From Litoreibacter meonggei (GTDB taxonomy: Bacteria > Pseudomonadota > Alphaproteobacteria > Rhodobacterales > Rhodobacteraceae): a stretch of DNA of 58,644 nt. The translations under genes were made by a program, and so were the position numbers. The DNA is taken from the NCBI RefSeq assembly GCF_003663885.1, contig NZ_RCCE01000010.1, forward strand, positions 1-58,644, written 5' to 3'. The notes beneath the pieces are model-generated. The model did no database searches, was not told the origin of the DNA, and was given only the letters and a program-made list of their open reading frames with translations. Below, in pieces: positions 1,742 through 26,972 of this stretch (position 1 is the stretch's first letter; every line of letters starts with the position of its first letter).

Positions 1742-1859
1742 GGCAGCCTTAAAGGAATGGCAGAATAGCCTTTATTTATAAGCGCCTGAGGAAACGCGGC
1801 AAAGCCCGTAACGTATATATAACTAGATTCATAACAGGTATTTTTTTCTTTTCCTTCCC

Positions 1860-2022: not shown

Positions 2023-3405
2023 ATGAGCAGTGACAGCCTGCCACCGTATTTCAACATCTCGCCCGACGAGGCGCTGAGCCAGCTTGAGCCTCCTATGGGG
2101 ACAAACGGTTTTGAAGCAATAGCACAAGCCTGCCAGCAAGGGCGCACCGATCTGACCGGTCGGGGCCTCAGCGAAGGCGGCGGCAAAATGCTGCGCCAGT
2201 TCTCGACATGGGAAATCACCAAATATCTGATCCCCGTGGCCCCTGCCCATTTCCGGAGGGTCCTCCGCAGCAACCCGGATCTGCCTCAGGGGCGCTCGGA
2301 GACCGATGGCGGGGCCAAGTGGTTCACATTGGACGAGGTGCTGCGTCTGCGCGCCCATTTCGCCGCTGAGGGCTCGAAATCGAAGGACTACCTGCCCTAC
2401 CGGCCCAAAGGCCAGCCTGCCAAGATCGTGGCGGTGGCCAATTTCAAGGGCGGTGTGGGTAAAACCTCCACCTGTGCGCATCTGGCGATGTCTGCGGCGC
2501 TGGACGGCTATAAGGTGCTGGTCATCGACCTTGATAGCCAAGGCTCGATGACCTCGATTTTTGGCGGCAAGGTCGAAGACGAATGGACCACTGTCTTCCC
2601 CCTGCTTGCCCGTCACTACGCCACGACCCTACAGGCCGACAATCAACGCCGCCTTGATCGCGGTGAGGCCCCGATTGCGCTGGAAGAGACTCTATCCGAG
2701 GCCCTTGATGTCAAAACAAAGGATGTCATCCAATCCACCCATTGGCCCAATATCGACCTGATCGGCGCGCAGCTGAACCTGTATTGGTCCGAGTTCCAGA
2801 TCCCCGTCTGGCGCATGCAGTCGCGTGGCTGGAAGCTCTGGGATGCGCTGACGGACGTGCTGGAAGCAGACGGCGTGCTGGACGAATATGATCTGGTTTT
2901 CCTCGATACCCCCCCTGCCCTCGGCTATCTGACGATCAATGGACTGTCGGCGGCGGATATTCTGCTGGTGCCGCTGGGCGCGTCGTTTTTGGAATTTGAT
3001 AGCACGGGGCGGTTCTTCGACATGCTGCATTCCACCTTTCATTCGATTGAAGAAGGCGAGAACGTCGCGGCGCGCGCGCTCGGGCGGCCTGAAATGGCGT
3101 TTGAATGGGATGCCGTGCGGGCGGTGATCACACGATATGACGGCGCCCAACAGGCCGAGATGGCGGGATTGATCCAGGCCTATCTGGGGCGCACCTTGCA
3201 GCCCTACAGGCAGGATTTCACCGCACTGATCGGGCAGGCCGGTGAAAGCGTAAACGGTATCTACGAGGCGGATTACCGCGACTTCAATCGCGAAACCTAT
3301 GCCCGTGGGCGCGCCACCTTCGACGAGACATATGCCGCATTCAAGACTCTATTGCTGGGGATTTGGCGGCGTGACGAGCTGGAGACAGCCAAGGCGGCCG
3401 AGTGA
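2023..3405 (+). CDS. parA: Plasmid partition ATPase ParA
   Basis: ParA hydrolyses ATP and moves plasmid copies apart together with ParB bound at parS. The 460-residue protein has an N-terminal region resembling the MerR/RepA-like helix-turn-helix of large partition ATPases (MLRQFSTWEITKYL through KWFTLDEVLRLRAHF). It then has a deviant Walker A motif FKGGVGKTST near residue 145, the VIDLDSQGS motif and a later VFLDTPPALG Walker B. I prefer the ATG at 2023 because AGAGG sits seven bases upstream. An in-frame start at 1945 would add 26 residues with no clear ribosome site. parB follows after 73 bp. Confidence 0.94.
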   Translation: MSSDSLPPYFNISPDEALSQLEPPMGTNGFEAIAQACQQGRTDLTGRGLSEGGGKMLRQFSTWEITKYLIPVAPAHFRRVLRSNPDLPQGRSETDGGAKWFTLDEVLRLRAHFAAEGSKSKDYLPYRPKGQPAKIVAVANFKGGVGKTSTCAHLAMSAALDGYKVLVIDLDSQGSMTSIFGGKVEDEWTTVFPLLARHYATTLQADNQRRLDRGEAPIALEETLSEALDVKTKDVIQSTHWPNIDLIGAQLNLYWSEFQIPVWRMQSRGWKLWDALTDVLEADGVLDEYDLVFLDTPPALGYLTINGLSAADILLVPLGASFLEFDSTGRFFDMLHSTFHSIEEGENVAARALGRPEMAFEWDAVRAVITRYDGAQQAEMAGLIQAYLGRTLQPYRQDFTALIGQAGESVNGIYEADYRDFNRETYARGRATFDETYAAFKTLLLGIWRRDELETAKAAE

Positions 3406-3478
3406 TGCGCGCGCAGGGCTCACAGGTTGCTAACCGTGTCGGGATATCTCCGGCGGACATTTCCAAAAGGAGCGCCCC

Positions 3479-4489
3479 ATGGCCAAACGCAAACGTCTGA
3501 CCCCCGCGGCTCTGACCGAGAGCACCCCCTCCCTCGCGTCCTCGGCCGCGCTGGAGACCAAGGCGCATTATCCGTTGGGTGTCGCCCCGAGTGGTGTAAC
3601 CCGTGCCCCTATCGCGCAGGTGGCAGGGGACACGGCGGCCCACGCGGCGTTGGAGGAGCTGGCGACGGCGCTGGAAACGGCGCGGGTGTCAGGACGGCTG
3701 GTACAAGACATTGCGTTGGACGACATCAAGGCGGACCATCTTTTGCGGGACCGTATGGGTGTTGATACGCAGGAAATGGATGCGTTGAAAACCAGCCTGC
3801 TGGCGCGCGGACAGCAAACCCCGATCGAGGTGATCGCGCTTGAGGGCGGTGGCTACGGGTTGATCTCGGGCTGGCGGCGGCTGTCTGCTTTTGCCGCGCT
3901 GCATGCAGAGACGGGGGAAAGTCGATTTGCCAAAATTCAGGCTCTAATCAAGCCGATTACGTCTGTGACCGACAGCTATGTCGCCATGGTCGAAGAGAAC
4001 GAAATTCGCTCCAATCTGTCTTTCTACGAACGGGCGCGGCTTGCCAGCGAGGCGGCGCGTCTTGGGGTCTACCCCGATAGCATGGAAGCCGTACGCGCAT
4101 TGTTTGCCTCTGGCAGTCGGGCGCGGCGGTCCAAGATCAATTCCTTTGTCAGACTGCACGAGGGGCTCGGTAGCCAGCTGTCCTTCCCGGCCCATATCCC
4201 GGAGCGGTTGGGCCTCGCGCTGGTCAAGGCGCTGGACGCGGATGCGGGTTTTGCCGCACGGGTGGACGACGCGTTGCAGCAGGCGGGCAGCGCTGATCCG
4301 GATGCCGAGCGCGCGGTGTTGGAGCAGGTGTTGCGTAAGGGCGGTGCCGCCAAGCCGGCCAAACCTGCCCCTGTCGAAGTCGCCCCCGGTGTTGCGTTAA
4401 GCGCCCGCTCCGGTCGGCTTGTCCTGTCAGGACGGGGTGTGACTGACGCGTTGGAGCAAGACCTGATCCGTTGGCTCGGCACGCGCTAA
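3479..4489 (+). CDS. parB: Plasmid partition protein ParB
   Basis: ParB binds parS and spreads on nearby DNA as the cargo adaptor for ParA. The 336-residue protein shows the ParB/Sulfiredoxin-type N domain around residues 78-160. That domain holds GQQTPIEV, the GLISGWRRLSAF box (equivalent of GERR) and EENEIRSNLSFYERA (equivalent of ENxxRxxL). A helix-turn-helix region lies around 185-235 and a small C-terminal domain follows. AAAAGGAG precedes the ATG. Two parS-like palindromes follow directly after the stop codon. Confidence 0.93.
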   Translation: MAKRKRLTPAALTESTPSLASSAALETKAHYPLGVAPSGVTRAPIAQVAGDTAAHAALEELATALETARVSGRLVQDIALDDIKADHLLRDRMGVDTQEMDALKTSLLARGQQTPIEVIALEGGGYGLISGWRRLSAFAALHAETGESRFAKIQALIKPITSVTDSYVAMVEENEIRSNLSFYERARLASEAARLGVYPDSMEAVRALFASGSRARRSKINSFVRLHEGLGSQLSFPAHIPERLGLALVKALDADAGFAARVDDALQQAGSADPDAERAVLEQVLRKGGAAKPAKPAPVEVAPGVALSARSGRLVLSGRGVTDALEQDLIRWLGTR

Positions 4490-5878: not shown

Positions 5879-8800
5879 TTAGAGAATGAAGCTATCTGCC
5901 ATGCCGTCCAGAGGGTCATCTTCGGGCGCATCTTCTGCAAATGTGCCGTGACCGCTGGTCAGAGCCGCCCACAGGTCGTCATTGGCCTGCGCGTTGGTCT
6001 CATCGCCTGCCACCACTGTACTGACAGCACCGGTGCCTGTGCCGGCTGCGCTGAGCGTCAGGGTGACGGTGTCAGCGTCATAATCATACCAGACCTTGGC
6101 GTCTTGTGTGTTGCCTAGCCCGGTGATGACGATCTCGTCAAAGCTGCCGATGATGTCGTCGACGGTGATCAGTGTCTCGCTGATGGCGATCCCGCCGGCC
6201 AAGGCCGAAACGTCGATATGCAGGTCGGCATTGCCCAGATTGACACCGGATTGAATGCCAGAGCCGTCTTTCGGGGTGTCGAAATGGCCGCTGTAGAATT
6301 CACTGACCTGACCCAGGCCATCTTGATCCGCGATGTAGGACAAGGTCGAGTTATCGTTCAGCAGCAGCACACCAGTGCCGCCTTCCTCGCCATCAAAGCC
6401 GACTTTACTGTCATCACCGTCGATGGTGAGGCTGCTATTTGCGTCCACGGCGAATATGTCATCGTCGGTGCCCAGAAGAACCTGCGCATTATCGGTGATG
6501 TTTACCTCGACCGTGCCATCAACCAGCCCGGTGTTGGCAAACCGGCCACCATCGACGTTGATTTTCAGAAGGTCGTCGTCGCCATAGCCGCTCAGCCAGA
6601 TCTGACCTGCGCCGTCGATATCAAGCGCGCCGCCGGTGTCACCGACATTCAGGTCGCCGTCGACCTCCAGATACCCATGGGTGACGTTGAGCTTGCCGCC
6701 CTCGCCCAGATCGAGGTTTTCGATCGTCGTGGTGCCACCGTAATTGACCCAGTTTCCGCCCAAATCGACACTATCATTGGCTGCCGGACCTTCGTCAGAC
6801 CCTGGCAGATAGCCGCTATCCCAGTTCAGGCTGTTGTCCCACCGCACCCCGTCGCCCAGATGATTGGGAACAAAGCGCAAGGAGCCCGCATCTTCGCGCA
6901 GGTCGACTTCAATGCCGAAGCCTTTCTGGAAGAAGGCAATGATCAGGTCGGCATCGACGACATCGGCAAGTGCGCCATCGGCCTGCGCCCGCAGGTGCTC
7001 TGCGAGGTCAGCAATGGTGGCGTCAGGATCGCCCAGCAGGTCGGCTGCGAAGTTCTGGATGGTGGTGGCGTCAAGGACCGAGGTGTTCAGACCGTCGATA
7101 TTCTGGTCAAACTGGTCTTGCTTGTCTACGTTGCGCCCGCCGACCCAATTGTAGATGATCGTGTCGTTATAAAGGGGCGCTTCTTGCAGGTTTAGAGCCT
7201 GATGGCCGGTATATTTTCCGGCCAGATCGGCAGGATCATTGGGGTCTGCAAGATGGGTGATAATGTTGTTGATCAGTGTCGCATCCGCAGCTTTGCTAAC
7301 GGCACCGATGGTCAATCCGCCTTTCGGGCCCACAGTGACTTCTTTATGCGCACCGGATGTGACGACATTGTCCATGAAGAGTGTGTAATTGCCTTGGTTG
7401 ACGCCGTCTTCGACGGTCCCGCCCAAGAAATTTACACCGGCGTTATTGTCCAAGAAGACGTTGTTTTCGATGAATCCGCCAGAGCGGACCTGCGCCCCGA
7501 ATGAGGCCCCGCGCGCGGTGATCGTGTCGCGCAGCGTAACATCGGAGTTGCCATAATTGAGGTAGATATTATGGCTATAAAGGCTGGGAGGCATGCCGCC
7601 GCTGAGAGACAAATCTGCCTCATAGTCATCTGCCCAGGCATTATGGTCCAGATACAGGTCTTCGAGCAGCATCCCGTGATTGTTGTTGCCGTAAATCCCG
7701 GTCATGCGGTTGACATGCGGGGACCAGATTGTTGCATTGAGCTCGTTTGGAACCTCGTGCACGACGTCGGTCACATCGGCATTGCGGAAAGTAATGTTCT
7801 CGATGTTTTGGAACACAGCTTCTTCGCCGGTGATGCTGATATCGTCAAATGCGATGTTCTCACCGCGCAGGAAACGGATGCCGCCAGTGAACTCAATGCC
7901 TTGAAAAACAACGTTTTCATAGCCGTCTTGAGCCAAATTCATTGGTGAGGAGATGATCGGTTGCTCGCCGTTTCCATAAGATCCGACATAGATCGGGTTC
8001 AATTCACTTTCGCCTGTCGTCCCCCGGTCAAGGATGGGGCCCATTTCGCTATACTCGTGGCCGGCTTCGAACAGCAGCCAGTGCGAGGAGGGCTCAGTGC
8101 CGGTGCCGGTCAGTTGCGACCACAGCATTCTGCCTGCATCTTCGGCCAGCGCCATATCGGGATCGGCGCCGTATTCGGAATGGGATTCAAACCACTTCCC
8201 GTTGATTTCAGAGACGTTGATACCCTCGAGATTGGCAATGTCTTGAAGACTCAGCGCGTCGTTATCGCCCGAGATGTGGACTTTGACGTGATTGAAGCCA
8301 TGCTCGACGACCAGATTGTTGTCCTGATCGGTTTGGAGCATGTAAAACTCGCCCATGCCCCAGCCGCCAGCCTGACTGCCCGCAGAGACGTCGACACCGG
8401 CATCATAGATCGTGCTGGTGCCGTCTGCGTAGGTGGCTTCAAAGCTGAAGGACAGATCTGTGGTGTCGGACGTTCCCGTAAGCACGAGGGCGAGGGTGTT
8501 GTCTGGATTGACTGTCACATTGCCATAGTCCGGGCCGGAGATGATTTTCACTCCAACAAGATTTTCGGCGTTGTCGATTTCGAGCGTTGTCACGCGTCCT
8601 GCGGTCGCAGTGGCGTTGAACGAGCCAAGGGTCGGGGGACCGGAAGGCTCCACGACAACAGGGTCGGTCGGGGGCTCTGGATCAGGTGTCGGATCCACGA
8701 CGACCGGTGGGACAACAGGGTCGGGTGTTGGTTCTACGACGACAACGGGGTCCGGCTCGGGGGCCGGTTCGGGAGTAGGCTCTACAACGACGACAGGCGT

Positions 8801-9070
8801 TGTAGGGGTCGGCTGTGGAACCACAACAGGGTCAGGGTTTGTTACGGGTTCTACGACGACATCAGCCTCGGGATCCGGTGTGACCACGGTCTCGGGGTCT
8901 GACGGAGAGGTTCCTGGTTGAGCCGGGGCAGCAGGCGTCGCAGCCTTGCTTCCACCACCGCCGCCACCAGCCATGCCAGCGAGAGCGCCTAAGAGTGCGA
9001 GAATTGCAGCCAGCATCTTAACACGAGCCCAGATGATGGGCCGCGCAGGCGGATTTCGTTTGGTACTCAT
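5879..9070 (-). CDS. Large secreted right-handed beta-helix protein with proline-rich stalk
   Basis: The product is 1063 residues from the ATG at 9070, which has GGGG ten bases upstream. An upstream in-frame start at 9157 adds 29 unlikely residues. It has a basic N-terminus, one hydrophobic segment (MLAAILALLGALAGMAGG), a glycine run and then about 90 residues of Pro/Val/Asp-rich stalk with PDPVVV and VVVEPTP repeats. An Ig- or cadherin-like beta domain (about 145-235), a parallel beta-helix (about 340-640) and a C-terminal beta-rich repeat region resembling autotransporter passengers follow. Such folds occur in polysaccharide lyases, epimerases and adhesins. No catalytic residues can be assigned, so trimming or binding the plasmid's own polysaccharide is only an inference. 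I see no sorting signal at the C-terminus (GMADSFIL). Confidence 0.85.
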   Translation of the reverse strand: MSTKRNPPARPIIWARVKMLAAILALLGALAGMAGGGGGGSKAATPAAPAQPGTSPSDPETVVTPDPEADVVVEPVTNPDPVVVPQPTPTTPVVVVEPTPEPAPEPDPVVVVEPTPDPVVPPVVVDPTPDPEPPTDPVVVEPSGPPTLGSFNATATAGRVTTLEIDNAENLVGVKIISGPDYGNVTVNPDNTLALVLTGTSDTTDLSFSFEATYADGTSTIYDAGVDVSAGSQAGGWGMGEFYMLQTDQDNNLVVEHGFNHVKVHISGDNDALSLQDIANLEGINVSEINGKWFESHSEYGADPDMALAEDAGRMLWSQLTGTGTEPSSHWLLFEAGHEYSEMGPILDRGTTGESELNPIYVGSYGNGEQPIISSPMNLAQDGYENVVFQGIEFTGGIRFLRGENIAFDDISITGEEAVFQNIENITFRNADVTDVVHEVPNELNATIWSPHVNRMTGIYGNNNHGMLLEDLYLDHNAWADDYEADLSLSGGMPPSLYSHNIYLNYGNSDVTLRDTITARGASFGAQVRSGGFIENNVFLDNNAGVNFLGGTVEDGVNQGNYTLFMDNVVTSGAHKEVTVGPKGGLTIGAVSKAADATLINNIITHLADPNDPADLAGKYTGHQALNLQEAPLYNDTIIYNWVGGRNVDKQDQFDQNIDGLNTSVLDATTIQNFAADLLGDPDATIADLAEHLRAQADGALADVVDADLIIAFFQKGFGIEVDLREDAGSLRFVPNHLGDGVRWDNSLNWDSGYLPGSDEGPAANDSVDLGGNWVNYGGTTTIENLDLGEGGKLNVTHGYLEVDGDLNVGDTGGALDIDGAGQIWLSGYGDDDLLKINVDGGRFANTGLVDGTVEVNITDNAQVLLGTDDDIFAVDANSSLTIDGDDSKVGFDGEEGGTGVLLLNDNSTLSYIADQDGLGQVSEFYSGHFDTPKDGSGIQSGVNLGNADLHIDVSALAGGIAISETLITVDDIIGSFDEIVITGLGNTQDAKVWYDYDADTVTLTLSAAGTGTGAVSTVVAGDETNAQANDDLWAALTSGHGTFAEDAPEDDPLDGMADSFIL
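8640..8905 (-). repeat. Degenerate repeats encoding the Pro/Val-rich stalk
   Basis: Within the beta-helix gene, imperfect copies of a unit like GGTTCTACGACGACAACGGG recur, for example near 8729, 8775 and 8846. They encode VVVEPTPxPxPDP-type repeats. Such repeats can change copy number by slippage and so change stalk length. Confidence 0.7.
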
Positions 9071-9585
9071 GTATCCCCAGACAAATGGTACGTGCTTGCA
9101 GGGCCTGGCCCACAACAAGGTTTCTAAATTCCATTTATACGTTATCCGCTTTTTCATTCCAGCACAGTCGTGAACAATCCATCACCTGCTTCCGTGTCGG
9201 TTTATGGTTAATAGGGTGTCCGCAGGCTGATTTTTTCGAGGCAGGAATGTGGCGTTCCTTTTGGGTTTTTTTGCTGATTTGAGGGGCCGGAAGTGCGGCA
9301 TCTGTCGATGCGAAACAACCCTGCGCGCCAAGCCTGTATGGACCCGCTCGGCGAATTTCCTCGCGCGGGGTGGCGAAGTTCCGCACGCAGCGGGCTTGCC
9401 TTAATCTGGCAAGGGGAGGGGACGGGTTAAAAAAAGTAGGGAAAACCCGACCCAAATCAGTGTTTCTGATTTGGAAATGATCGAGGGTCCTGAGGGTGAA
9501 TCTCGTGAGGTTTCAAGGCGCTGATGTGGCAATCCACATGTTGAGCCGTCTCGAAATCATGTGCCCGAACCGCGGCGCGCGACCT
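9071..9585. other. Intergenic region without a convincing gene
   Basis: This 515-bp stretch separates two leftward genes. Short frames on both strands have atypical composition and no supporting start signal. It should hold the promoter of the beta-helix gene (right side of 9071) and the end of the rhomboid transcript. A clear stem-loop lies at 9452-9474, with a second weaker inverted pair (ACGGGTT/AAACCCG) at about 9422-9449. Confidence 0.6.
9452..9474 (-). terminator. Stem-loop downstream of the rhomboid gene, possible terminator
   Basis: CCAAATCAG and CTGATTTGG form perfect 9-bp arms with a 5-base loop. In the leftward direction the stem is followed by GTCGGGTTTTCCC and then a run of seven T at about 9429-9435. 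The T run is not immediately adjacent, so termination is likely but not certain. Confidence 0.5.
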
Positions 9586-11797: not shown

Positions 11798-12421
11798 TTA
11801 TTCGAACAGTCTGCGTTCGGGTACCAGGATCACGTCGCCATCCTGGAGATAGATTTCGTTGGCCAGACGCGCGCCTCTGGCGAGGGCGCGGTAATTGATA
11901 ATGCTGGTTGTCTGCTGCCCGCTGGTATCGGTGCGGCGTAGCTGAACACGCTTGGTGGCGGCGAAGTTGGAAAACCCGCCGCTTTGCGCCATGGCTTGCA
12001 GGAAGGTCGTGCCTGGGGCCACCTTCTTGATGCCGGGGGCGCTGACTTCACCGGTGAAATAGATGTCGATTGTCGCCGGAGCAGCGGGGGCGCCGCCGCC
12101 AGAGGACCGAACGACCGGGCGCAGCGCGCTGACAGAAACAAAAACGGTTGGCTCACTGGCGAATTGCGGCGCGATGCCGGCCTTGATCGCCTGCTGGACC
12201 TGACCCACGGTGCGCCCGCTGGCTGTCACGGTGCCGGCATAGGGAAAGTCGACCGTGCCGCCGGGCAGAACCAGAAGCGAACGGTTCAGCTGGCTGTCTT
12301 CGAGTACCTCGACGGTGATCGTGTCGCCGGACTTGATGCGGTAATTGCTTTGTGCTTGCGCGGCGAACCCTAAGGTGAGCGCAAAGATCAAGCCCGTCAG
12401 GGCGGTCATCAACTGTTTCAT
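11798..12421 (-). CDS. Polysaccharide export protein, Wza/PES family
   Basis: This family forms the periplasmic/outer-membrane channel for exported capsule or exopolysaccharide. From the ATG at 12421 the protein has a signal peptide ending near GFAAQAQ and a PES domain starting at YRIKSGDTITVEVLEDSQL. A SLBB-like region follows (VTASGRTVGQVQQAIKAG, then GEVSAPGIKKVAPGTTFLQAMAQSGG). There is no lipobox cysteine, unlike E. coli Wza. It is short (207 residues), as in PEP-CTERM-associated export proteins. An alternative in-frame start at 12433 adds four residues. An inverted repeat (12441-12456) sits just upstream. Confidence 0.9.
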   Translation of the reverse strand: MKQLMTALTGLIFALTLGFAAQAQSNYRIKSGDTITVEVLEDSQLNRSLLVLPGGTVDFPYAGTVTASGRTVGQVQQAIKAGIAPQFASEPTVFVSVSALRPVVRSSGGGAPAAPATIDIYFTGEVSAPGIKKVAPGTTFLQAMAQSGGFSNFAATKRVQLRRTDTSGQQTTSIINYRALARGARLANEIYLQDGDVILVPERRLFE

Positions 12422-12440
12422 ATCAAACCTCATTCGGTAA

Positions 12441-12456
12441 CGGCATTATGGTGCCG
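12441..12456. promoter_or_regulatory. GGCA-N6-TGCC inverted repeat upstream of the export gene
   Basis: CGGCA-TTATGG-TGCCG, 8-20 bases before the two candidate starts of the export gene. Related elements occur at 12601-12614 and 15944-15957 in the same leftward gene set. It could be a repressor operator or a translational hairpin. Confidence 0.4.
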
Positions 12457-12541
12457 CAAGCGGACCTGATTATGCAAGTTATGTGCTGATTTTTACCAAA
12501 CATAAAGTGCTCAGATGACTCTAGGGCGGCTAATGTGCCTG

Positions 12542-12566
12542 CCGGGCCACTCTGATTGTGGTCCGG
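12542..12566 (-). other. Hairpin in the spacer after the prsT-like gene
   Basis: CCGGGCCAC and GTGGTCCGG pair over nine positions (one G-T) around a seven-base loop. It lies 39 bp after the prsT-like stop in the leftward direction. No T run follows, so it may attenuate rather than stop transcription, or shape mRNA decay. Confidence 0.4.
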
Positions 12567-12600
12567 CCTCTGGTTTTAGGCCCGGAAATCTCATTTCACG

Positions 12601-12614
12601 GGCATTATTGTGCC
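12601..12614. promoter_or_regulatory. GGCA-N6-TGCC inverted repeat at the prsT-like stop codon
   Basis: GGCATTATTGTGCC overlaps the stop region of the PrsT-like gene. It matches the element before the export gene at 12 of 14 or more positions (GGCATTATGGTGCC at 12442-12455). Confidence 0.35.
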
Positions 12615-15061
12615 TCTAGCTCCGCAATTTTGGCGCGGGCGGCCTCGACCAGTGCTTCTGTGCCGAGCGGGCCGGCCGTGGTGATGGCCTTTTGCAGTTG
12701 GCGCAGGGCGTCTTCTTTCCGGTCAAGAGCCGCATAGACCATCCCCAGATGCACTTGTACCGAGACATCGTCTGGCAGTCCTTCGGCGGCAGGCTCAAGG
12801 TAGCTGCGGGCGGCCTCATGGTCGCCATCGAGGTGCTGGAGCCAGCCATAGGTGTCTTGGAACGCGGGCAGATCGCTGTCTTTGAGACGCCGCGCGATAA
12901 CCTGTGCCCGTGCGATGCTGTCTGGATCATCGGCGCGGTAGGTGCTGAGCAGGCTGGCGAGGTTATTGGCGATCACCGGCGATCCGGAGAACCTTTTGTA
13001 AAGCTCCTCGTAAATGTCGATCGCCCCGCCAACGTCACCGGCGTTCTGCATGAAAGAGGCTTTGCCCCAAAGCAGGTCGGGGGCCCCGGGCACGGCTTCA
13101 AGCCCGTCGTCGATTGCGGCAATAGCGGCTGGCTGATCGCCCTTTGCGATATAGACGCGGGCCAACTGCAGCCAGACCGGTACAACTGTAGGATTGGCGT
13201 CCAGTACGGCCTTGAATTCGGTTTCTGCCGCCGTGTAATCGCGTACGGAGGCATAGGTCAGGGCCAGAGCGTTGCGCAATTGCAGGTTCTCGGGATCCTC
13301 TGCCACCAGCGATTTGGCGTATTCCAGCGCGGCATCGCCTTCGCCATTTTCCAGTCGCGCGCGCAGCAGGGCGAGTTTGGCTTGCGCCCCGGTGGCCCCT
13401 GACTCCTGCGAGAGACCTTCGAGATAGCCAAGGGCTTCCTCTACACCGGACTCGCGGGCCAGCAGCTCTATGTTGAGTGCGTTTGCGTTGCTTTGCGCGT
13501 TGTCAGTTTCTATTTTGCGCAGAGTATCAACCGCCTGTCTGGCACGCGGTACGTCGTCTATGGCAAGGTAAATCTGACCCAACGCGGTGAGCACATCGAC
13601 ATTCCCCGGCGTGATACGCAGCGCGTTGATCAGGACCGATTCCGCCTGTAGCGGCTTGTCCGCTTGATTGAGCGCCGCTGCATAGCGCAACGCTTGAAGC
13701 GGGGCACTGTTGGAGGCTTCGACTGCGAGGGACAGAAAGTTCAGCATCAACTCGGTGTTGCCGGCCCGCTTATAAGCTTCGGCCATCAGGGTCATAGCTT
13801 CGGCATCCTGGGGGGCCGCGTCGAGCGCGGTGCGCAGAGCGTTGATGGCTCCGTCTGTGTTGTCCTCACGGGTCAACCAGACCGCCTGCATTTTCAAGGC
13901 ACCGACGGAATTGGGATCTTCGGCTAGAATTTCTTCGACCAGCTTGCGGCCACCAACCTCGTTGCCATCGGTCACCAGCATTTTGGCGAGGGCAACTTTG
14001 ATATTCTGCTGTTCGGTTTTGCTCAGGGTAGAGGATTCTGCACTGAGGATGTCCTGCAACTCGGTGATGCCTTCGCTGCGCTTGCCGGTGTCGAAATTGA
14101 TCGACGCGCGCAAGGTGCGTAGCGTGTCCTGACCGGGCTCTTTGGCCAGACCCGTTTCCAGTTCGGCCAAGGCGGCTTCTGTTCCTTGAGTGGCGAGCAG
14201 GAACTGGATCAGGCTGGTATATGTGCCGATCCGGGTCTTGTCATCGGGTGCTGAGGCCATGGTGTTGCGTAGGAAAGCTTCGGCCTCATCGGGCTTATCG
14301 CGGCTGATCAGGAAGCGCAGCAGGGTGCTTTTGACATTCGCGTCTTCCGGGAATTGCACCACCATGCGGCGCATTTCCTCTTCCATGGCGTCGGGCCGGT
14401 TCTGGCGCGCGAAGAGTTCTAGCTTGGCAGAGTAGAGCTTCAGCTCGTCAGGGTCGTTTTCGATGGATTTTTCCAGTTCCGACAAGGCTTTGTCGAACTT
14501 TTCCTGAGAGACATAGCCGTCGATCAGAATCTGGCGCAAAATTTCATTATCTGGCTGGTCAGGGGAAAGGGTTTCGGCTTGGGCCAGCAAGCTGTCGCGC
14601 AGTGCCGAGTCCTCTGCCAAAACCGCATTGCGGTATTGCACGCCTGTATTGATGGCTTGCACCGCCGGGTCATTGGGGGCGAGGCTGACGGCAACAGCGG
14701 AGTGGCGGTCAAATTCTTCCCAGTCACGTATCGCAAAGGACAGCTCGCTCAGCGCCATGCGCCCTTCGAGATCTTCGGGGTTCTTCTCGACCACGCTTAG
14801 GTAATTTCGGTAGGCGGCCTGAAAATTGCCGCGCTCTTTGAATATCTGCGCCATCTGGCGCCGCGCGTCAGTATTGTTTTTGGACAGTTTCAGCGTGTTG
14901 CGGAATTCGACCAATGCACGGTCAAAGTCACCCTCTGCGACCAGCTTGAGGCCGTTATCGTAATGCTCTGCAGCACGTTCTTCGGAGGATTTCCAACAGC
15001 CGGCGACGGCGAGACAAACCAATAAGGGCAGGACAGATTTTCTTAGGGAACCCAAACGCAC
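12605..15061 (-). CDS. prsT: PrsT-like TPR-repeat lipoprotein of exosortase/EPS systems
   Basis: The 818-residue protein has a lipoprotein signal with lipobox LAVAGC (Cys22). Almost its entire length is tetratricopeptide repeats, for example AEHYDNGLKLVAEGDFDRAL near residue 31 and repeated A-L-x-P spacing throughout. Size, lipobox and context match the TPR lipoprotein PrsT found in XrtA/PEP-CTERM exopolysaccharide loci. PrsT is thought to scaffold the export machinery at the outer membrane. It lies between the sugar transferase and export genes, all leftward. The family name is inferred from architecture and neighbourhood. Confidence 0.87.
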   Translation of the reverse strand: MRLGSLRKSVLPLLVCLAVAGCWKSSEERAAEHYDNGLKLVAEGDFDRALVEFRNTLKLSKNNTDARRQMAQIFKERGNFQAAYRNYLSVVEKNPEDLEGRMALSELSFAIRDWEEFDRHSAVAVSLAPNDPAVQAINTGVQYRNAVLAEDSALRDSLLAQAETLSPDQPDNEILRQILIDGYVSQEKFDKALSELEKSIENDPDELKLYSAKLELFARQNRPDAMEEEMRRMVVQFPEDANVKSTLLRFLISRDKPDEAEAFLRNTMASAPDDKTRIGTYTSLIQFLLATQGTEAALAELETGLAKEPGQDTLRTLRASINFDTGKRSEGITELQDILSAESSTLSKTEQQNIKVALAKMLVTDGNEVGGRKLVEEILAEDPNSVGALKMQAVWLTREDNTDGAINALRTALDAAPQDAEAMTLMAEAYKRAGNTELMLNFLSLAVEASNSAPLQALRYAAALNQADKPLQAESVLINALRITPGNVDVLTALGQIYLAIDDVPRARQAVDTLRKIETDNAQSNANALNIELLARESGVEEALGYLEGLSQESGATGAQAKLALLRARLENGEGDAALEYAKSLVAEDPENLQLRNALALTYASVRDYTAAETEFKAVLDANPTVVPVWLQLARVYIAKGDQPAAIAAIDDGLEAVPGAPDLLWGKASFMQNAGDVGGAIDIYEELYKRFSGSPVIANNLASLLSTYRADDPDSIARAQVIARRLKDSDLPAFQDTYGWLQHLDGDHEAARSYLEPAAEGLPDDVSVQVHLGMVYAALDRKEDALRQLQKAITTAGPLGTEALVEAARAKIAELEAQ

Positions 15062-19887: not shown

Positions 19888-20688
19888 ATGATAATAAATC
19901 GCGATAAGAATTTTGGATTTGTCCATATTGCGAAATGCGCAGGGTCAACAATTCGCCAACAATTGCGTGAGCAAGATGATGCGGCAGGCAAATTCTATCA
20001 CTCCATAGACCACCCCCAACTCGGCTGGATTAACGGCAACCATGTGCCGTTAGACGTGTTGGCGCGCTATTTTCCAGAAGATTTCGAGGCGCTGCGCGCG
20101 GTGGTATCCTATACGATCGTGCGCGATCCCGTGGACCGCTTTGTTTCCGGCATGTCGCAATATATCCGAGATCAGGGTCAGGAGCCGAGTGAGTTAACCC
20201 CGGCGCAGATCGCAGCGCATGCCGAAGATGTCATTGCGTATATGCAAGGGCTCGAAGGGCTGCCCGACCGCTCCCATATTCTGTTTGCACGGCAAGAAGA
20301 TTATGTCTTTCTCGAAGGCGCGCGCGTGATCACCCATGTCTATGCGATGGACCATGTTGATGCGCTGTTTGAGGTGTTGGAACGCCGGCATGGGCTGACC
20401 CTGATCCGAGACAAGGTCTGGAATCCGACCGTGACCTATCGCTACCCTGCTTTGACAAAGACTTTAAAGTGGCTGAAGGGCGTTGGCCAAAAGCATCTTT
20501 CGATGAAAGCCTATGTGACGCTACGCGAAATCGCGTTTCGAGCGTTCACGCAAAGCGGTGCTCCAAAACTTAATGAAACTCTCATGTCCTCGGAAGCCGT
20601 GATGTCATTTGTTGCTGAGTATTATCCTGCCGATAATGCGCTTTATCATGAGGCAAAGACCGCAGCAGAATTCGACAAAAGCGCCTGA
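19888..20688 (+). CDS. Sulfotransferase, family 2 (PF03567-like)
   Basis: Members transfer sulfate from PAPS to sugar hydroxyls. The 266-residue protein has the 5'-phosphosulfate loop FVHIAKCAGSTIRQQL near its N-terminus. The 3'-phosphate motif TIVRDPVDRFVSGMSQYI lies near residue 77. It is followed by the racemase gene after 106 bp, on the same strand. Whether its target is the polysaccharide or the product of the next genes is open. It is unlike the other five sulfotransferases on this plasmid and comes closest to the carbohydrate type with the HIAKCAGS form. Confidence 0.87.
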   Translation: MIINRDKNFGFVHIAKCAGSTIRQQLREQDDAAGKFYHSIDHPQLGWINGNHVPLDVLARYFPEDFEALRAVVSYTIVRDPVDRFVSGMSQYIRDQGQEPSELTPAQIAAHAEDVIAYMQGLEGLPDRSHILFARQEDYVFLEGARVITHVYAMDHVDALFEVLERRHGLTLIRDKVWNPTVTYRYPALTKTLKWLKGVGQKHLSMKAYVTLREIAFRAFTQSGAPKLNETLMSSEAVMSFVAEYYPADNALYHEAKTAAEFDKSA

Positions 20689-20794: not shown

Positions 20795-21550
20795 ATGAGC
20801 TTACATATTCGCGTCGTTACCCCGATCATTCCTACCGGTTTAACTCAGGCTTCAGATTTTGAAGGGATCTTGGGGCCCGAAGACCGCCTGAGTTATGTTG
20901 AAATCGGCAAGGGCGCAGCCTCTATTGAAACCGAGCTTGATGAGATACTTTCCGCGCCCGATACCGTCGCGAAGATTATTGAAGCTGAGGCCGAAGGCGT
21001 TGACGCTGTCGTTATCGATTGTATGGGCGACCCCGGTTTGCGACCCGCGCGTGAATGTGTCGAAATTCCCGTTCTTGGACCATGCGAGACGACAATGAAC
21101 CTCGCGTGCATTTTGGGGCATCGTTACAGTGTCTTGGCGGTTGCTGCGAATATGCGCGTCCGATTTGAGAACCAAGCCCGCATTTATGGCGCCTGGGACA
21201 AATACGCGTCCACCCGCTCTGTCGATGTCCCGGTCCTTGAATTGGATTGCGAAAGCGATTTGCTAAAGGAAAAGCTATTCGAGCAGGCCATTCTGGCTTT
21301 GGAAAATGACGGGGCTGACACGCTTATAATCGGCTGTACCGGCATGGTGGGCCTTGCACAATCGCTTCAGGAAAAATTGCGCGATGCGGGGTGGTTTGTG
21401 CCAGTGATCGACCCGATTCCGATCACTGTCAAAATTGCAAAAGCCTTGGTGGAAACCGGTATTAGTCATTCAAAAGCTGCCTACCCGAACCCGGAAAAGA
21501 AGCTGAAAAGCGGTCGCGGATATCCTGAGTTTGAAAGCTTTTTGAAGTAG
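20795..21550 (+). CDS. Asp/Glu/hydantoin racemase family protein
   Basis: Enzymes of this family (PF01177) invert a carbon centre next to a carbonyl using two cysteines. The 251-residue product has both: Cys76 in VVIDCMGDPG and Cys181 in LIIGCTGMVGL. The IPVLGPCETTMNLACILG segment lies between them. This pattern fits hydantoin or aspartate racemase-like members. An upstream in-frame start at 20609 would overlap the sulfotransferase gene and encode an unrelated hydrophobic leader, so I use the ATG at 20795, which has only a weak ribosome site. It probably supplies an inverted amino acid or keto acid to the neighbouring cluster, by inference. Confidence 0.85.
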   Translation: MSLHIRVVTPIIPTGLTQASDFEGILGPEDRLSYVEIGKGAASIETELDEILSAPDTVAKIIEAEAEGVDAVVIDCMGDPGLRPARECVEIPVLGPCETTMNLACILGHRYSVLAVAANMRVRFENQARIYGAWDKYASTRSVDVPVLELDCESDLLKEKLFEQAILALENDGADTLIIGCTGMVGLAQSLQEKLRDAGWFVPVIDPIPITVKIAKALVETGISHSKAAYPNPEKKLKSGRGYPEFESFLK

Positions 21551-21711: not shown

Positions 21712-21798
21712 ATGGTAAACCACGAATTCGCGCAAACAGCTTTTTCTACCGAAACGTCAATTGAACATAGTGCGCCTGCCAAAGCACGTCATGTATAG
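21712..21798 (+). CDS. Possible 28-codon leader ORF before the CDPS-like gene
   Basis: An ATG preceded by GAAAGGTG opens a 28-residue frame starting MVNHEFAQTAF. It ends with a TAG at 21796-21798, five bases past the ATG at 21791 of the next gene. This geometry suits translational coupling. It could equally be the true N-terminus of the next gene separated by a frameshift. Evidence is only the ribosome site and the overlap. Confidence 0.3.
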   Translation: MVNHEFAQTAFSTETSIEHSAPAKARHV

Positions 21799-22588
21799 CG
21801 GTCGAATGATAAATTCGCTTGCCGATGACGCGGCGGATGTATCTTCGCGAACCGGGCTCAATGTCAGTGAGTTGGTCCCCGCCCAGGAAAGCATGCTGCC
21901 CGGAATTGGTGGTGTTCTAACGAACCGCGCCGGCGATTTTGATTTGGAGGGGCGTGACGCATGGATTTTTATCAGCATCAAGAACAGAGGCTTCAACCGG
22001 CCCTATATTGATAGGTTTATCGACCTGTGCGACGGCTTCGGGCTCAATGGTCATGTGTGTCCGGTCGACGATCCGTATCGCTACAATAGCATGGCGGAAT
22101 TCAAGAGCGATGATTTGCCAGAGGCAGAGGCCGCAAAAATCGAACGTCTGTCTACCGATATAACGCGCATGGTGCAGAAAGCCATTAACGGCAAGCGAAC
22201 CGAGCGTGTGGATATCGTGAAGTGGCGCGACATCGAAGAGAACACACCGAAGACCTACCGCGAGGAACTCAGCGCAGCCTTCCATGGCAGGACACGTATT
22301 CGAGACATCCTGTATGACCATATCAGCTCGGTGAAACAGTTGGACTCGGAGAGATGTTTCGAGCGCTATGCCGAATTCTTTTTGTGCGAAGTGCCGGTCT
22401 TGATTCATGCCTATTACAGCAATGGCCCGACGATGGATATTTATCCCGGCCCGCAACCCAAGTTCTTTTGGCAAATCGAGATGGGCCTTTTTGAACAGGA
22501 ACTGCCAAAACTCACCGCCCTAACCAAAGCCGGACGTTCCATGCTTTATCTGGATACGCACGACCGTTCAGGGGGCGGAAAAAAATGA
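21791..22588 (+). CDS. Cyclodipeptide synthase-like protein (CDPS superfamily)
   Basis: CDPSs join two amino acids from aminoacyl-tRNAs into diketopiperazines. I read this as a divergent member by aligning it from memory with AlbC and YvmC. Numbering uses the longer TTG start at 21761 (275 residues). AWIFISIKNRGFNRPYIDRF (residues 68-86) matches the ISxxNxxF catalytic-serine block (Ser72, Asn75). FFLCEVPVL (206-214) matches the YxxxE-LP helix, with Glu210 present but Phe206 where AlbC has Tyr178. DIYPGPQP (226-233) matches the Tyr202-Pro loop of the XYP subgroup. The ATG at 21791 is chosen because it overlaps the small upstream frame. The stop overlaps the GNAT start (ATGA). Confidence 0.72.
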   Translation: MYSGRMINSLADDAADVSSRTGLNVSELVPAQESMLPGIGGVLTNRAGDFDLEGRDAWIFISIKNRGFNRPYIDRFIDLCDGFGLNGHVCPVDDPYRYNSMAEFKSDDLPEAEAAKIERLSTDITRMVQKAINGKRTERVDIVKWRDIEENTPKTYREELSAAFHGRTRIRDILYDHISSVKQLDSERCFERYAEFFLCEVPVLIHAYYSNGPTMDIYPGPQPKFFWQIEMGLFEQELPKLTALTKAGRSMLYLDTHDRSGGGKK

Positions 22589-23400
22589 CTCATATCGACG
22601 GCCGCCCTGATGGGGCGTCTGAAATATCCGCAGAAGAAATTCTTGCGAGTCATTTCAGTTTGATTTCTCAGCCCGGGACGATTGACTGTGTTAATATCGC
22701 TGGCGCTGACGGCTGGACATCGCCGCATCCACATCCGGTACTCAGCTTGATGCGCTGGACGACAGACGACGAAGCTATTGCGACCGCAGCACTTGACGAA
22801 GTGTTGGAGCGATGCGGCGAAATGGGTCACGGGTTTGACTGGATGACCGGGCCGAGTTGCGCCAAGAGCGGGCTGCTATCCCTCTTGGAAAGCCGTGGTT
22901 TCGTCGGCCCGCCTCTGGAGGTTACAGCGATGGTAAGGGCCATCGCACCGGGCGAGCCGCTGGATCAAGAGGCTGGTATCCGCATTCGGAAGGTTTCTGA
23001 TCATACCGATGACCGTGTTTGGCGGCTTATGGCAAAAGGGTTCGACGTCCCCGACGAGGTCGGGACAATATTTCATAACGCCTATATGACGTCTTCCCCG
23101 CTTCAAAACTCGGACGTCTATGTCGCAATGGTTGATGATGACGATACGCCGGTGGGCGTTGGGTATTTATCCTATATTGGGACGGGCCCTACGGTCTTGC
23201 TCAGAGTATCTTGCACCGAAGAAGGGCATCGAGGGCGCGGCATCTACCGTGCACTTGTGAAACGGCGGCTGCACGATGCGGCGCAGCAGGGCCGAACGCA
23301 CGCCTTTGTACATGCTTATTCTGAAGCCTCAATGCGGGGTCTGAGCGGCCTTGGCTTCACTGATGTCGGTACCCTTCTGCTTCATCGATGGCGGCCATGA
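22585..23400 (+). CDS. GNAT family N-acyltransferase
   Basis: The 271-residue protein carries a C-terminal acetyl-CoA binding GNAT fold. VYVAMVDDDDTPVGVGYLS (about 176-194) is strand 4. VSCTEEGHRGRGIYRALVKR (about 210-229) holds the pyrophosphate-binding RGRGIY loop. AFVHAYSEASMRGLSGLGF is the terminal part. The N-terminal 130 residues form a second, weaker GNAT-like or substrate-binding half. It overlaps both neighbours by four bases (ATGA at each end), so it is almost certainly part of one functional unit with the CDPS-like and NRPS-like proteins. Acylation of their amino group is a reasonable guess. Confidence 0.85.
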   Translation: MTHIDGRPDGASEISAEEILASHFSLISQPGTIDCVNIAGADGWTSPHPHPVLSLMRWTTDDEAIATAALDEVLERCGEMGHGFDWMTGPSCAKSGLLSLLESRGFVGPPLEVTAMVRAIAPGEPLDQEAGIRIRKVSDHTDDRVWRLMAKGFDVPDEVGTIFHNAYMTSSPLQNSDVYVAMVDDDDTPVGVGYLSYIGTGPTVLLRVSCTEEGHRGRGIYRALVKRRLHDAAQQGRTHAFVHAYSEASMRGLSGLGFTDVGTLLLHRWRP

Positions 23401-25985
23401 CGACCGCCGAAACGCAAGTTTCGACGGCCAAGATCGCACCTGTCTATCTTCACGAACTGATCACACCGGCGCTTAAAGCGAATCCGGATCACTGCGCTTT
23501 TCGGTTTCGTGGTGCGGAGCTGACCTGCGCAGATCTGCTCAAAGCAGCACGCCATGCAGCAACGAGGCTGAGCCGGCTCGGCCTTGTTGCAGGGGAGCCT
23601 GTGGCCGTCGAGATCGAGCATTCTTTTGAGCTCGTCATCGGAATGTGCGGCGTCGTGATGTCAGGAGGGTGCGTGGTCCCAATTGATCCTACGGCATCGG
23701 AGGAGCGCCGCCGTGCCATTCTCGCTGATATCAATCCGCGACTTGTCATGACGAGATCGCAACAGAAATCCGCCTCCTGCCCCCCCGGCTCCTCGGCTTC
23801 AATTGATATCGTGGATAACGGGCCCGGACAGGTGGTCCCCGCAGATCCCGATTTGGCCTTTGTCGTCTATACGTCAGGGTCCGGTGGCGGCCCCAAAGGG
23901 GTCGAGATTACGCACGCCAATTACACTGGGAGATTGCAGAAGATCATCGAAGCAAGCCCCTCAGGCGCTGGAACCGTGGATCTCGCATGGACCCCCTCAA
24001 GCTTCATCGGAATGCTTGATGAAATATTCTACCCTCTGCTTATGGGTTTTCGTGCTGTTATCGCTGATCCGAACGGTCGTACCGAACCTCGCGACCTTGC
24101 TAACCTTATTGCCCGTGAAGGAATTACGACTTTCAGGATCACACCAAGTCTTCTCGACGTTTTCCTGCGATCGGGTGTCGCGGACCGGCTTGGCGGTGTG
24201 CGACGTATCTTTTGCAGCGGCGAGACGCTGTCCGCGGATCTGCAAAAGAGGGCGCATGATTTGCTCAACGCCGACATTGTCGGCTTTTATGGAGCCACAG
24301 AGGCCCCCGGTGTCGCGTTTCACGCCTATGATCGAAATGCGCCGCCACTTGAGACGAGTATATGCATGCCGCAAGTGTTTGCGGCCATCTGCGTCACAGG
24401 CGCTGACGGCCGGGATGTCGACGTGGGAGAGACAGGCGAGATCTGGATCGGAGGTTGCGCAGTTGCGCGGGGATATCGAGGCAAACCGGACCTGTCCGCT
24501 GAAAAGTTCGTTCAACGGGATGGCGCGCAATGGTATCGCACCGGAGATTTGGGGCGGCGTTTGGACGGTGGGCGCATAGAAGTCTTGGGCCGCTTAGATT
24601 TAAGTGAAGTCAAAATCCATGGGGTGCGCGTCAGCCTGCCTGAAATAAGAGAGGCGCTTGGCAGTTTGCCTTTGGTCGCGGATGCATGGGTCAGCGTTGT
24701 CACGACCGCACAGGGGGGCGACCCGATACTTGTCGCGCACTATGTTGCTACGGATGGGGTCGATGCTGCACCAAGAGGCCTGAAGTCGGAGTTATCCTCG
24801 CTGTTGCCGTCTGCTGCTGTGCCGCGTGCGCTGATTGAGCGAGATCATTTTCCGCTCACCGCGAACGGCAAGCTGGACATCCAGAAACTGGCGCAGGAGG
24901 CATCTGCTTTTCTTGCATCTGCATCGAAAACCGAAATCACGGGGGATCTGCCGGAACCCGGTAAGATGTCGTCGGAGATTGAAGCCCTTCTCCCTGTCGT
25001 GATTGATGTGGCCGAGGAAATTTTAAACGTCGAAGGGCTTTCTGGCAGGGACAATTTTTTTGCCGCTGGAGGGAATTCCCTTCTTGCCGTGCATTGCTCT
25101 TTGGCGTTGAGCGAGAGGCTTGGTGTGGACATCATGACCACGCTTATTTTCAACACCGAAACATTGTTGGATATTGCTGAGGCGATTGCCTCGGGGCGTG
25201 GTCACGCGGCTGCATCGCTTAGGCTTTTGCGCAACGGAGATGGTGAAGAGCCGCCACTCTTTACTGTGAATGCGACCGGAAATTACAGCGTATTGGCGGC
25301 CCAGCTGGGTGGGACATATCCAGTCTACAATCTGAATATATTCGGCCTGACGAATGATCTGATCGAGACCCTCGACACTGTGGCCCTCGAGGATTTGGCT
25401 GTTCGACTGGCAGAGCAGATATATGACGCCCACCCAACCGGTCCCTATAGGTTGCTCGCGTATTGTCAGGACGGCTGCCTCGCGATTGAGACCGCGCGCG
25501 TTCTGCAACAACGGCACGGGGCTATATGCAGCCTTCTCCTTATTGATACGTTCTTCATGGAGCATAGGACGAACCCAAAGATGTTGTTGATGAGGGCGGT
25601 CGATCTGGGGGCGTCCTATTATTTCAAGAAGCTCAAAGGGATGCTGCGAAAGCAGAAGGCGCAGGATAGTTTCGCCGACATTGACCCCGAACGACGTGCC
25701 GCACTCATGGGCAAGTCGCAAAATGATCAGAGGCTTTATCGTCGCTACACCGAGCTTTTTACGGCCTATCGCCCGTCTGTTTTTGAAGGTCAGGTCGCCC
25801 TGTTCGTGTCTCAGGAATGGCGGCGCGCCAACCTGTCTTGTGTGCAGGAGATGGCACAGAACGGCCTTACGGTGGCATATGTCCCGGGACTACATAACAC
25901 ACTCTTTACTCAGGAAGATGTTCCCAACCTAGCTGCCGCAATAGACGCAGAATTGCCAAGGTTGCAGGGTCGTCGCACGTGTTGA
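23397..25985 (+). CDS. Single-module NRPS-like enzyme, A-T-TE
   Basis: Numbering is from the ATG at 23397 (862 residues). The adenylation domain (about 15-495) has YTSGSGGGPKG, GFYGATEAPG, YRTGDLGRR and PLTANGKLD with the catalytic Lys492. The carrier domain has FFAAGGNSLLAV with Ser561 for phosphopantetheine. The thioesterase (about 615-855) has LLAYCQDGCLA, where the usual GxSxG serine is Cys690, plus Asp717 and His833. There is no condensation domain. The A4 segment SSFIGMLDEIF lacks the Asp that binds the alpha-amino group in amino-acid-activating domains (Ile there), as in A domains for keto, hydroxy or aryl acids. This reminds one of A-T-TE furanone/quinone synthetases. An ATG at 23388 is the alternative start. 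Confidence 0.9.
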   Translation: MTTAETQVSTAKIAPVYLHELITPALKANPDHCAFRFRGAELTCADLLKAARHAATRLSRLGLVAGEPVAVEIEHSFELVIGMCGVVMSGGCVVPIDPTASEERRRAILADINPRLVMTRSQQKSASCPPGSSASIDIVDNGPGQVVPADPDLAFVVYTSGSGGGPKGVEITHANYTGRLQKIIEASPSGAGTVDLAWTPSSFIGMLDEIFYPLLMGFRAVIADPNGRTEPRDLANLIAREGITTFRITPSLLDVFLRSGVADRLGGVRRIFCSGETLSADLQKRAHDLLNADIVGFYGATEAPGVAFHAYDRNAPPLETSICMPQVFAAICVTGADGRDVDVGETGEIWIGGCAVARGYRGKPDLSAEKFVQRDGAQWYRTGDLGRRLDGGRIEVLGRLDLSEVKIHGVRVSLPEIREALGSLPLVADAWVSVVTTAQGGDPILVAHYVATDGVDAAPRGLKSELSSLLPSAAVPRALIERDHFPLTANGKLDIQKLAQEASAFLASASKTEITGDLPEPGKMSSEIEALLPVVIDVAEEILNVEGLSGRDNFFAAGGNSLLAVHCSLALSERLGVDIMTTLIFNTETLLDIAEAIASGRGHAAASLRLLRNGDGEEPPLFTVNATGNYSVLAAQLGGTYPVYNLNIFGLTNDLIETLDTVALEDLAVRLAEQIYDAHPTGPYRLLAYCQDGCLAIETARVLQQRHGAICSLLLIDTFFMEHRTNPKMLLMRAVDLGASYYFKKLKGMLRKQKAQDSFADIDPERRAALMGKSQNDQRLYRRYTELFTAYRPSVFEGQVALFVSQEWRRANLSCVQEMAQNGLTVAYVPGLHNTLFTQEDVPNLAAAIDAELPRLQGRRTC

Positions 25986-26333: not shown

Positions 26334-26972
26334 ATGAAAAACTTTCTGAAACTGACTACTACTGCCGCTGTGCTGACTGTGGCTGGGTCGCTATCAGCTT
26401 CCGCCGCATTGATTGACTTTAGTGCAACCGGGACCGGCTTTTCCGGCTCGCTTGGTTCAAACAACTGGACATTGACCGGTTTTCCAGTCGCTCCGAATAC
26501 GGACGAAACTGGCAGAGGCCCGGTGGGTGTTATTGCCGGTGACAACGACGGTGTCGGCATCGACAACGACGAAGTGACCGCTCCTTCCGAATATTTGACC
26601 CTGACATTTGATCGCAATGTTCGTCTGGTTGGATCCTACTTCCTTGACCTGTTCATCGCACGTACTGGGTTGTCCCATGAAGTTGCGAACATCACCGTTG
26701 GCGCTGTGCCAGGTGCTGTTGCTGCATTTAAAGATGCCGACGATGTCTTCCCAACCCAAGGCGGCTATGCCGAGTTGGAAAACCTGAGCCTTGTTGGAAC
26801 TCAGTTTACCTTCTTCGCAAGCCTGACCAATGACGACATCGGCAAAGCCGACTTCGCTTTGGCTGCGGTTGAAGTTGCTCCGGTTCCACTGCCAGCAGGC
26901 TTCTTGCTTCTGGGCACGGCACTGGGTGGTCTGGGCGTCGCACGTCGCCGCAAGCAGCGCAAAGCTGCTTAA
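26334..26972 (+). CDS. VPLPA-CTERM sorting domain protein
   Basis: The 212-residue secreted protein has a signal peptide ending near SLSASA-A. An all-beta body follows (about 25-180). The C-terminus has the tripartite sorting signal: VPLPAG, a hydrophobic helix (FLLLGTALGGLGVA) and a basic tail (RRRKQRKAA). This is the VPLPA variant of PEP-CTERM, recognised by a dedicated exosortase that cuts near the motif. The matching exosortase is at 52743-54350. The body resembles other PEP-CTERM surface proteins and has no enzyme motif. GAGGG precedes the ATG, and a strong terminator follows 22 bp after the stop, so it is a single-gene unit. Confidence 0.93.
   Translation: MKNFLKLTTTAAVLTVAGSLSASAALIDFSATGTGFSGSLGSNNWTLTGFPVAPNTDETGRGPVGVIAGDNDGVGIDNDEVTAPSEYLTLTFDRNVRLVGSYFLDLFIARTGLSHEVANITVGAVPGAVAAFKDADDVFPTQGGYAELENLSLVGTQFTFFASLTNDDIGKADFALAAVEVAPVPLPAGFLLLGTALGGLGVARRRKQRKAA

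Follow-up and report, generated by a model that had tools for sequence, protein, structure and literature searches.

What could be built by a gene set in which a protein resembling a tRNA-dependent cyclodipeptide synthase (CDPS) is encoded next to a GNAT-fold acyltransferase and a stand-alone enzyme of adenylation, carrier and thioesterase domains (A-T-TE)? The question is raised by a 58,644-nucleotide stretch of Litoreibacter meonggei DNA (NZ_RCCE01000010.1), hereafter the window. An earlier note, made from the sequence alone, had described the three genes as an overlapping chain, and the open reading frames (ORFs) and their junctions bear this out: CDPS-like, GNAT and A-T-TE genes follow one another on the + strand, each joined to the next by an ATGA stop/start overlap (Table 1). 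Our main finding is that these genes and a racemase homologue form a four-gene cassette around a CDPS-like core, which is conserved and recurs in other marine bacteria in varied genomic settings. The four genes probably build a small peptide-derived molecule from charged tRNAs.

The evidence for a cassette comes from three related loci, in Roseovarius sp. MMSF_3359 (L003), Litoreibacter roseus (L004) and an uncultured Roseobacter (L005). All four genes stand together in each of the four readable loci, so the neighborhood survey proposed in the earlier note did find its three genes again elsewhere. A further match in the window's genus (G004) lies at the same place as L004 and was counted as the same organism, leaving four independent loci. 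In L003, L004 and L005 the order is CDPS-like, GNAT, racemase, A-T-TE; in the window the racemase gene lies upstream instead, 240 bp before the CDPS-like start. Apart from this racemase, adjacent cassette genes overlap or are at most 28 bp apart in all four loci, with the A-T-TE starts of L004 and L005 taken as the first possible ones. The four-base overlap between the CDPS-like and GNAT genes is also seen in all four, reading ATGA in the window, L003 and L004 and GTGA in L005. Pairwise identity among the loci is 71–80% for the CDPS-like protein, 58–65% for the GNAT, 54–71% for the racemase and 40–56% for the A-T-TE enzyme. The flanks elsewhere hold a TRAP transporter and a universal stress protein (L003), phenol hydroxylase-like and solute-binding proteins (L004) and a PA14 protein (L005).

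The earlier note had also pointed to a racemase and a sulfotransferase upstream. The racemase homologue is a core member of the set, present in all four loci, while for the sulfotransferase (19888–20688, PF03567 1.1e-4) the compared stretches flanking the other three cassettes hold no equivalent, and we rejected it as a member. For this comparison, 46 filtered ORFs of the window were set against the ORFs of at least 150 amino acids in L042, L043, L044, L045 and L004 (15, 16, 13, 20 and 16, respectively). The matches were limited to cassette genes and a single surface protein; the filter missed the GNAT and racemase of L045, both of which are seen in the locus alignment.

How widely is the set distributed? 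A search of about 5.8 billion sequences returned a CDPS-like family of 64 proteins, the window's own included, which is a small family on this evidence. Of 394 genomes of the bacterial family, an even sample of a larger group, two match the CDPS-like profile, and the GNAT profile matches the same two strongly (427 and 417 bits) and two more weakly (53 and 46 bits). Beyond the family, one of 385 genomes of the class and one of 398 of the phylum matched, each time the window's own genome. In the genus of the L003 genome only that genome itself matched (1 of 84), and the plasmid collection and the viral contigs gave no match. The locus scan of one-genome-per-species contigs relied on six peptide patterns taken from a single sequence, which distant relatives can escape. 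The list of GNAT homologues holds 51 close members, after which the E value drops from 1.5e-48 to 2.6e-9. Taking exactly equal contig size as a proxy for contig identity, 18 of 59 GNAT homologues (window's included) apparently share a contig with a CDPS-like homologue; many of the remainder sit on contigs under 2 kb. Fourteen distant CDPS-like relatives (P0048–P0050, P0052–P0058 and P0061–P0064) are 26–43% identical to the window's protein. By the same proxy P0048 alone of these has a GNAT partner, in a GNAT search that was seeded with one sequence and may miss distant partners. The other distant relatives may serve different pathways.

The structural check suggested in the earlier note came out in favor of the Rossmann-type CDPS fold. 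The AlphaFold model of the CDPS-like protein has a predicted local distance difference test score (pLDDT) of 89.9, and every one of Foldseek rows 1–43 and VIA rows 1–25 is a CDPS. Profile searches agree, with matches to 9gun (4.2e-6 in one run, 2e-8 in another) and ParcuCDPS (2e-5); a match to 4y6w, a TPR repeat protein, was taken as false. The other check, a hidden Markov model search with PF16715, was negative, as were all other Pfam profiles on this protein. A PF16715 scan of 21 genomes gave no match, but its controls gave none either, so that scan carries no weight. The NCBIfam model for tRNA-dependent cyclodipeptide synthases, TIGR04539, gives E 0.0041 and 16.7 bits against a cut-off of 45; among the 22 proteins of alignment A3, the window's own counted, 11 match it with E of at most 1, the best at 4.5e-7.

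In an alignment counted by hand, S62, N65, D93, E200, Y218 and P219 correspond to S26, N29, D58, E171, Y191 and P192 of ParcuCDPS, and F196 to Y167. Of the four residues that serve catalysis in the family, three are thus kept. S62 takes the place of the catalytic Ser (AlbC S37), and 61 of 64 homologues carry its S-x-K-N motif, the three that lack it measuring 109–188 amino acids. When the helix motif was scanned with both the Phe and the Glu place left free, it was found in 61 of the 64 homologues. E200, in the place of the catalytic Glu (AlbC E182), is Glu in all 61. The cyclizing Tyr (AlbC Y202) and its Pro are kept in the form DxYPG in 61 of 64; P0033 reads DIYTG and the other two are short fragments. 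The fourth residue, the anchoring Tyr (AlbC Y178), is Phe in all 61 homologues that show the helix motif, including 12 of the 14 distant relatives, which are all those showing it. Because of this replacement we call the protein CDPS-like rather than a proven CDPS. That it is a tRNA-dependent peptide former, which in the earlier note it was said to resemble, we infer, one of four catalytic residues being replaced and PF16715 negative.

AlbC Y178F is reported to be impaired (PMC5935735). ParcuCDPS Y167F and three XYP enzymes with the same mutation still formed product, though in reduced yield, and variants of ParcuCDPS D58 and E171 lost most or all activity (PMC7613923). The window's protein resembles the XYP CDPSs (ParcuCDPS, 7QB8; P. 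gingivalis CDPS, 9GUN) in its fold across 191–222 aligned residues, in its Ser nucleophile, its Glu, its cyclizing Tyr followed by Pro, and the Asp that bonds the Ser in ParcuCDPS (PMC7613923). It differs from them in the Phe for the anchoring Tyr, in an identity of about 10–22% and in scoring under the Pfam and NCBIfam cut-offs. The fixed Tyr-to-Phe change makes this family a natural test of the anchoring tyrosine's role in CDPS catalysis.

The racemase homologue, scanned from a longer frame beginning at 20735, matches PF01177 at 2.2e-32. It is 67% identical to its counterpart in the genus's other cassette genome; 19 of the remaining 59 genomes also show a match, none above 38%. Its best solved relative is 3qvj (1.2e-33), named a putative hydantoin racemase by its depositors. 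C76 and C181 align with the Cys pair of 3qvj and are Cys in all four loci; the deposited variants 3qvk and 3qvl have Ser in both columns. The epimerase opaE, presumably a fungal one, is among the matches (6.4e-10). NozR, of the same Asp/Glu-racemase family, interconverts D and L residues within the CDPS-made cyclo-Trp-Trp; it was modeled on 3QVJ as an allantoin racemase reference, and mutants of its Cys75 or Cys179 showed no detectable interconversion (PMC10156859). The likeness lies in the family, the Cys pair, the structural reference and, presumably, an action downstream of a CDPS. The difference is that the NozR gene lies at a locus separate from its CDPS, with prenyl- and methyltransferase partners.

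For the GNAT, the earlier assignment was correct: the protein matches PF00583 at 4.5e-6, and its structure model gave the GNAT fold in the VIA search, in which folds of both acyl-CoA and aminoacyl-tRNA users match. The VIA Z scores are 18.6 to 4ius and 17.0 to mycothiol synthase solved with coenzyme A (CoA). The RGRGIY loop, which we take to be the CoA pyrophosphate loop, has R216 and G217 nearly invariant and G219 fully invariant. A CDPS with a GNAT-fold ligase is on record in Rickettsiella, and CDPS genes near N-acetyltransferases, sulfotransferases and nonribosomal peptide synthetase (NRPS) genes have been recorded (PMC5767969). That survey of CDPS clusters, by Skinnider et al. (2018), resembles our case in placing acetyltransferase and thiotemplate genes within 2.5 kb of a CDPS. 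It differs in that its main text does not use the word racemase, and the present four-gene set is unnamed in its excerpts.

The A-T-TE assignment also stood, with Pfam matches for all three domains (Table 1). No condensation domain was matched in the Pfam scan of this enzyme. It is 56% identical to its counterpart in the genus's other cassette genome, and at most 37% among the other matches listed. At GrsA position 235 its adenylation domain has Ile, aligned to the Asp of LgrA, and YGATE stands in place of YGPTE; both features are shared by all four orthologues. The rest of the code, read by eye, is Gly/Thr 236, Asp 239, Arg 278, Phe/Ile/Tyr 299, Ser 301 and Phe 322. This code is not known to us from any other enzyme. 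In StsA, an alpha-keto acid domain, Ile occupies position 235 and the conserved Pro is missing; in hydroxy-acid domains the residue at 235 is Ala or Gly (PMC11253843). An aliphatic residue at 235 is not exclusive to keto-acid domains: McyG, with Val at this place, accepts Phe (PMC11253843). Keto-acid quinone synthetases are marked by Val as the first code residue (PMC10316625). Taken together, the A-T-TE alpha-keto acid synthetases (atromentin and polyporic acid synthetases, RalA, EchA) share with the window's enzyme the domain order, the lack of a condensation domain and an aliphatic residue for Asp235 (Val in the known ones, Ile here). In contrast to them, the window's enzyme is encoded beside a CDPS-like gene, has Arg at 278 by eye, and carries a Cys thioesterase in three of four loci.

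The nucleophile place of that thioesterase is Cys in the window, L004 and L005 (YCQDG or FCQDG) and Ser in L003 (FSFHG). In the L003 enzyme (12394–14913, + strand) the Ser thioesterase belongs to a different sequence type, as though this domain had been swapped. Cys is the rarer thioesterase nucleophile; SulM and ObiF have Cys thioesterases, which close small rings (PMC11298585). The phosphopantetheinyl transferase (PPTase) profile PF01648 has a single match of AcpS size in each of two genomes, the window's own (contig C6, 109008–109271) and that of L004; the L003 genome has a second match, and in the L005 genome a weak one falls short of the cut-off.

From the genes, fold, residues, conservation and co-occurrence, all of them computed, we infer the reactions, their order, the substrates and the product. 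The CDPS-like protein would accept on Ser62 the amino acid carried by one charged tRNA and add a second residue from another, with Glu200 and Tyr218 helping to release a cyclodipeptide (diketopiperazine). By analogy with NozR, the racemase homologue could then invert one or both ring alpha-carbons through Cys76 and Cys181. The GNAT would use an acyl-CoA to acylate the product at a free amine or hydroxyl. The A-T-TE enzyme would activate an acid that lacks a free alpha-amino group, with an alpha-keto acid as the favored candidate, and keep it on its carrier, from which the Cys-thioesterase might move it onto the modified peptide or couple two copies. We give about an even chance to a self-contained natural-product cassette of this kind, in which a cyclodipeptide is made, epimerized, acylated and coupled with the A-T-TE-activated acid. 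The suggestion in the earlier note that tRNA-derived amino acids are joined, acylated and condensed with a carrier-held acid is compatible with the sequence. If the cassette works as we propose, tRNA-dependent and thiotemplate chemistry would be coupled in four small genes (about 5 kb), easily cloned and tested whole. It is tempting to go further, if tentatively, and propose a tRNA/carrier hybrid: the CDPS-like enzyme with its altered anchor would supply residues that are epimerized and joined directly to an alpha-keto or other non-amino acid on a stand-alone Cys-thioesterase synthetase that has no condensation domain. A pathway of this sort would yield a new class of hybrid diketopiperazine or amide. 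Several observations weigh against the self-contained cassette. The anchoring Tyr is absent, the thioesterase type is not constant across the four loci, the four shared genes include neither a transporter nor a regulator, and the lone PPTase match of the window's genome is of AcpS size although the carrier needs priming.

Ring closure itself may be doubted. The aminoacyl group on Ser62 might be passed to a non-tRNA acceptor, for example an acid on the A-T-TE carrier or an acceptor prepared by the GNAT, to give an amide or linear dipeptide whose alpha-carbon is set by the racemase. The fixed Tyr-to-Phe change and the unmatched condensation domain, which leaves bond formation to a different enzyme, would suit such a route, and a separate tRNA-using enzyme that partners an NRPS lacking a condensation domain is on record (PMC10548850). 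We nevertheless consider it unlikely, since the cyclizing Tyr and Pro are kept across the family and XYP CDPSs with the Tyr-to-Phe mutation still form rings (PMC7613923). It seems less probable still that two loosely coupled pathways lie side by side, the CDPS-like, GNAT and racemase genes making one compound and the A-T-TE enzyme alone dimerizing an aryl-pyruvate, as in RalA, EchA and the fungal quinone synthetases. Its domain layout is that of the keto-acid A-T-TE enzymes, with Ile here where their first code residue is Val (PMC10316625). It is also the least conserved of the four proteins, well below the CDPS-like one, and its thioesterase in L003 has Ser for Cys. Against a division of this kind stand the close packing of the four genes at every locus, the window's racemase excepted, and the Arg 278 and Asp 239 read by eye in all four orthologues, which are unlike the known aryl-pyruvate codes.

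The preferred route through a cyclodipeptide also takes the GNAT to be an acyl-CoA user. If it were instead a second tRNA-dependent aminoacyltransferase, like FemX or Sbb17, it would add an amino acid to the peptide with no acyl-CoA involved; the shared fold allows this, and we regard it as improbable, given the higher Z scores to a GNAT not so described (4ius) and to the CoA-bound mycothiol synthase. The RGRGIY loop, taken as the CoA loop, is kept as well. Finally, the genes might be unrelated neighbors in a cargo region, as the plasmid-like look of the window and the different placing of its racemase could suggest. Such a chance neighborhood is very improbable and we rejected it: the set recurs in four of four loci with mostly different flanks, and of the 394 family genomes the two with a CDPS-like gene are also the two with a strong GNAT match.

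All four classes of enzyme have been described before; their combination and its product have no known counterpart as far as we searched. The earlier note knew of no described pathway with this set, which holds in that no paper naming the four genes was found, and needs amending in that the parts have precedent. The literature search, by title and start of abstract in open-licence papers only, is a weak one.

Table 1. Features of the four-gene cassette in the window.
Feature	Coordinates	Strand	Description
Racemase	20795..21550	+	Asp/Glu/hydantoin-racemase family, 251 aa; Cys pair C76/C181
CDPS-like	21791..22588	+	265 aa, ATG to TGA; S62, N65, D93, E200, Y218-P219 kept; F196
CDPS-like/GNAT overlap	22585..22588	+	ATGA stop/start
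GNAT	22585..23400	+	271 aa; tandem GNAT-fold acyltransferase; RGRGIY loop in C-terminal half
GNAT/A-T-TE overlap	23397..23400	+	ATGA stop/start
A-T-TE	23397..25985	+	862 aa; adenylation, carrier, thioesterase
Adenylation domain	23475..24872	+	PF00501 (3e-61), PF13193; Ile at GrsA position 235; YGATE replacing YGPTE
Carrier (T) domain	24999..25187	+	PF00550 (2e-8); GGNSL
Thioesterase domain	25386..25949	+	PF00975 (3.4e-8); nucleophile place is Cys, codon 25464–25466

The CDPS-like gene most likely starts at 21791. Its "MY" N-terminus is shared by 36 of 64 homologues, and ATG-TAT or ATG-TAC stands at this position in L003, L004 and L005; the database model of the protein (P0001) starts five codons downstream. 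The earlier note had let the operon begin at 21712, and this was not borne out, the ATG there opening a 28-codon frame in a different phase. That frame (21712–21798, + strand) terminates eight bases within the CDPS-like gene and might conceivably encode a leader peptide. The A-T-TE gene has a further in-frame ATG at 23388. Scans of the window for regulatory signals gave 4 promoter-like sites against 5.2 expected and 7 terminator-like sites against 7.9; an Rfam scan of the window returned nothing at the gathering score, and the repeats found were short ones only.

The window is the entire contig C10 of its genome and has 95 identical bases at both ends. Among its gene products are a replication initiator (PF10134, 2.6e-99) and a ParA-like protein, with the frames of the replication region spanning 529–4489; a frame beside the ParA-like gene is ParB-like by eye and has no Pfam match at 1e-5. 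With these features the window most likely represents an entire plasmid, circular and about 58.5 kb long. The set behaves as a movable trait: one marine bacterium has it on a probable plasmid, together with surface-polysaccharide genes, and elsewhere its surroundings are different.

A 1092-amino-acid product of the window (5879–9157, - strand) has no Pfam match at 1e-5. Over about 990 columns it shares 39% identity with the large PA14-domain protein that neighbors the cassette in L005 (5737–10176, - strand), and it may be a surface protein that travels with the cassette. The plasmid also bears polysaccharide-export, exosortase and VPLPA-CTERM genes: a VPLPA-CTERM protein is encoded just 3' of the A-T-TE gene (26334–26972, + strand), and an EpsH-type exosortase lies on the same contig (52743–54350, + strand).

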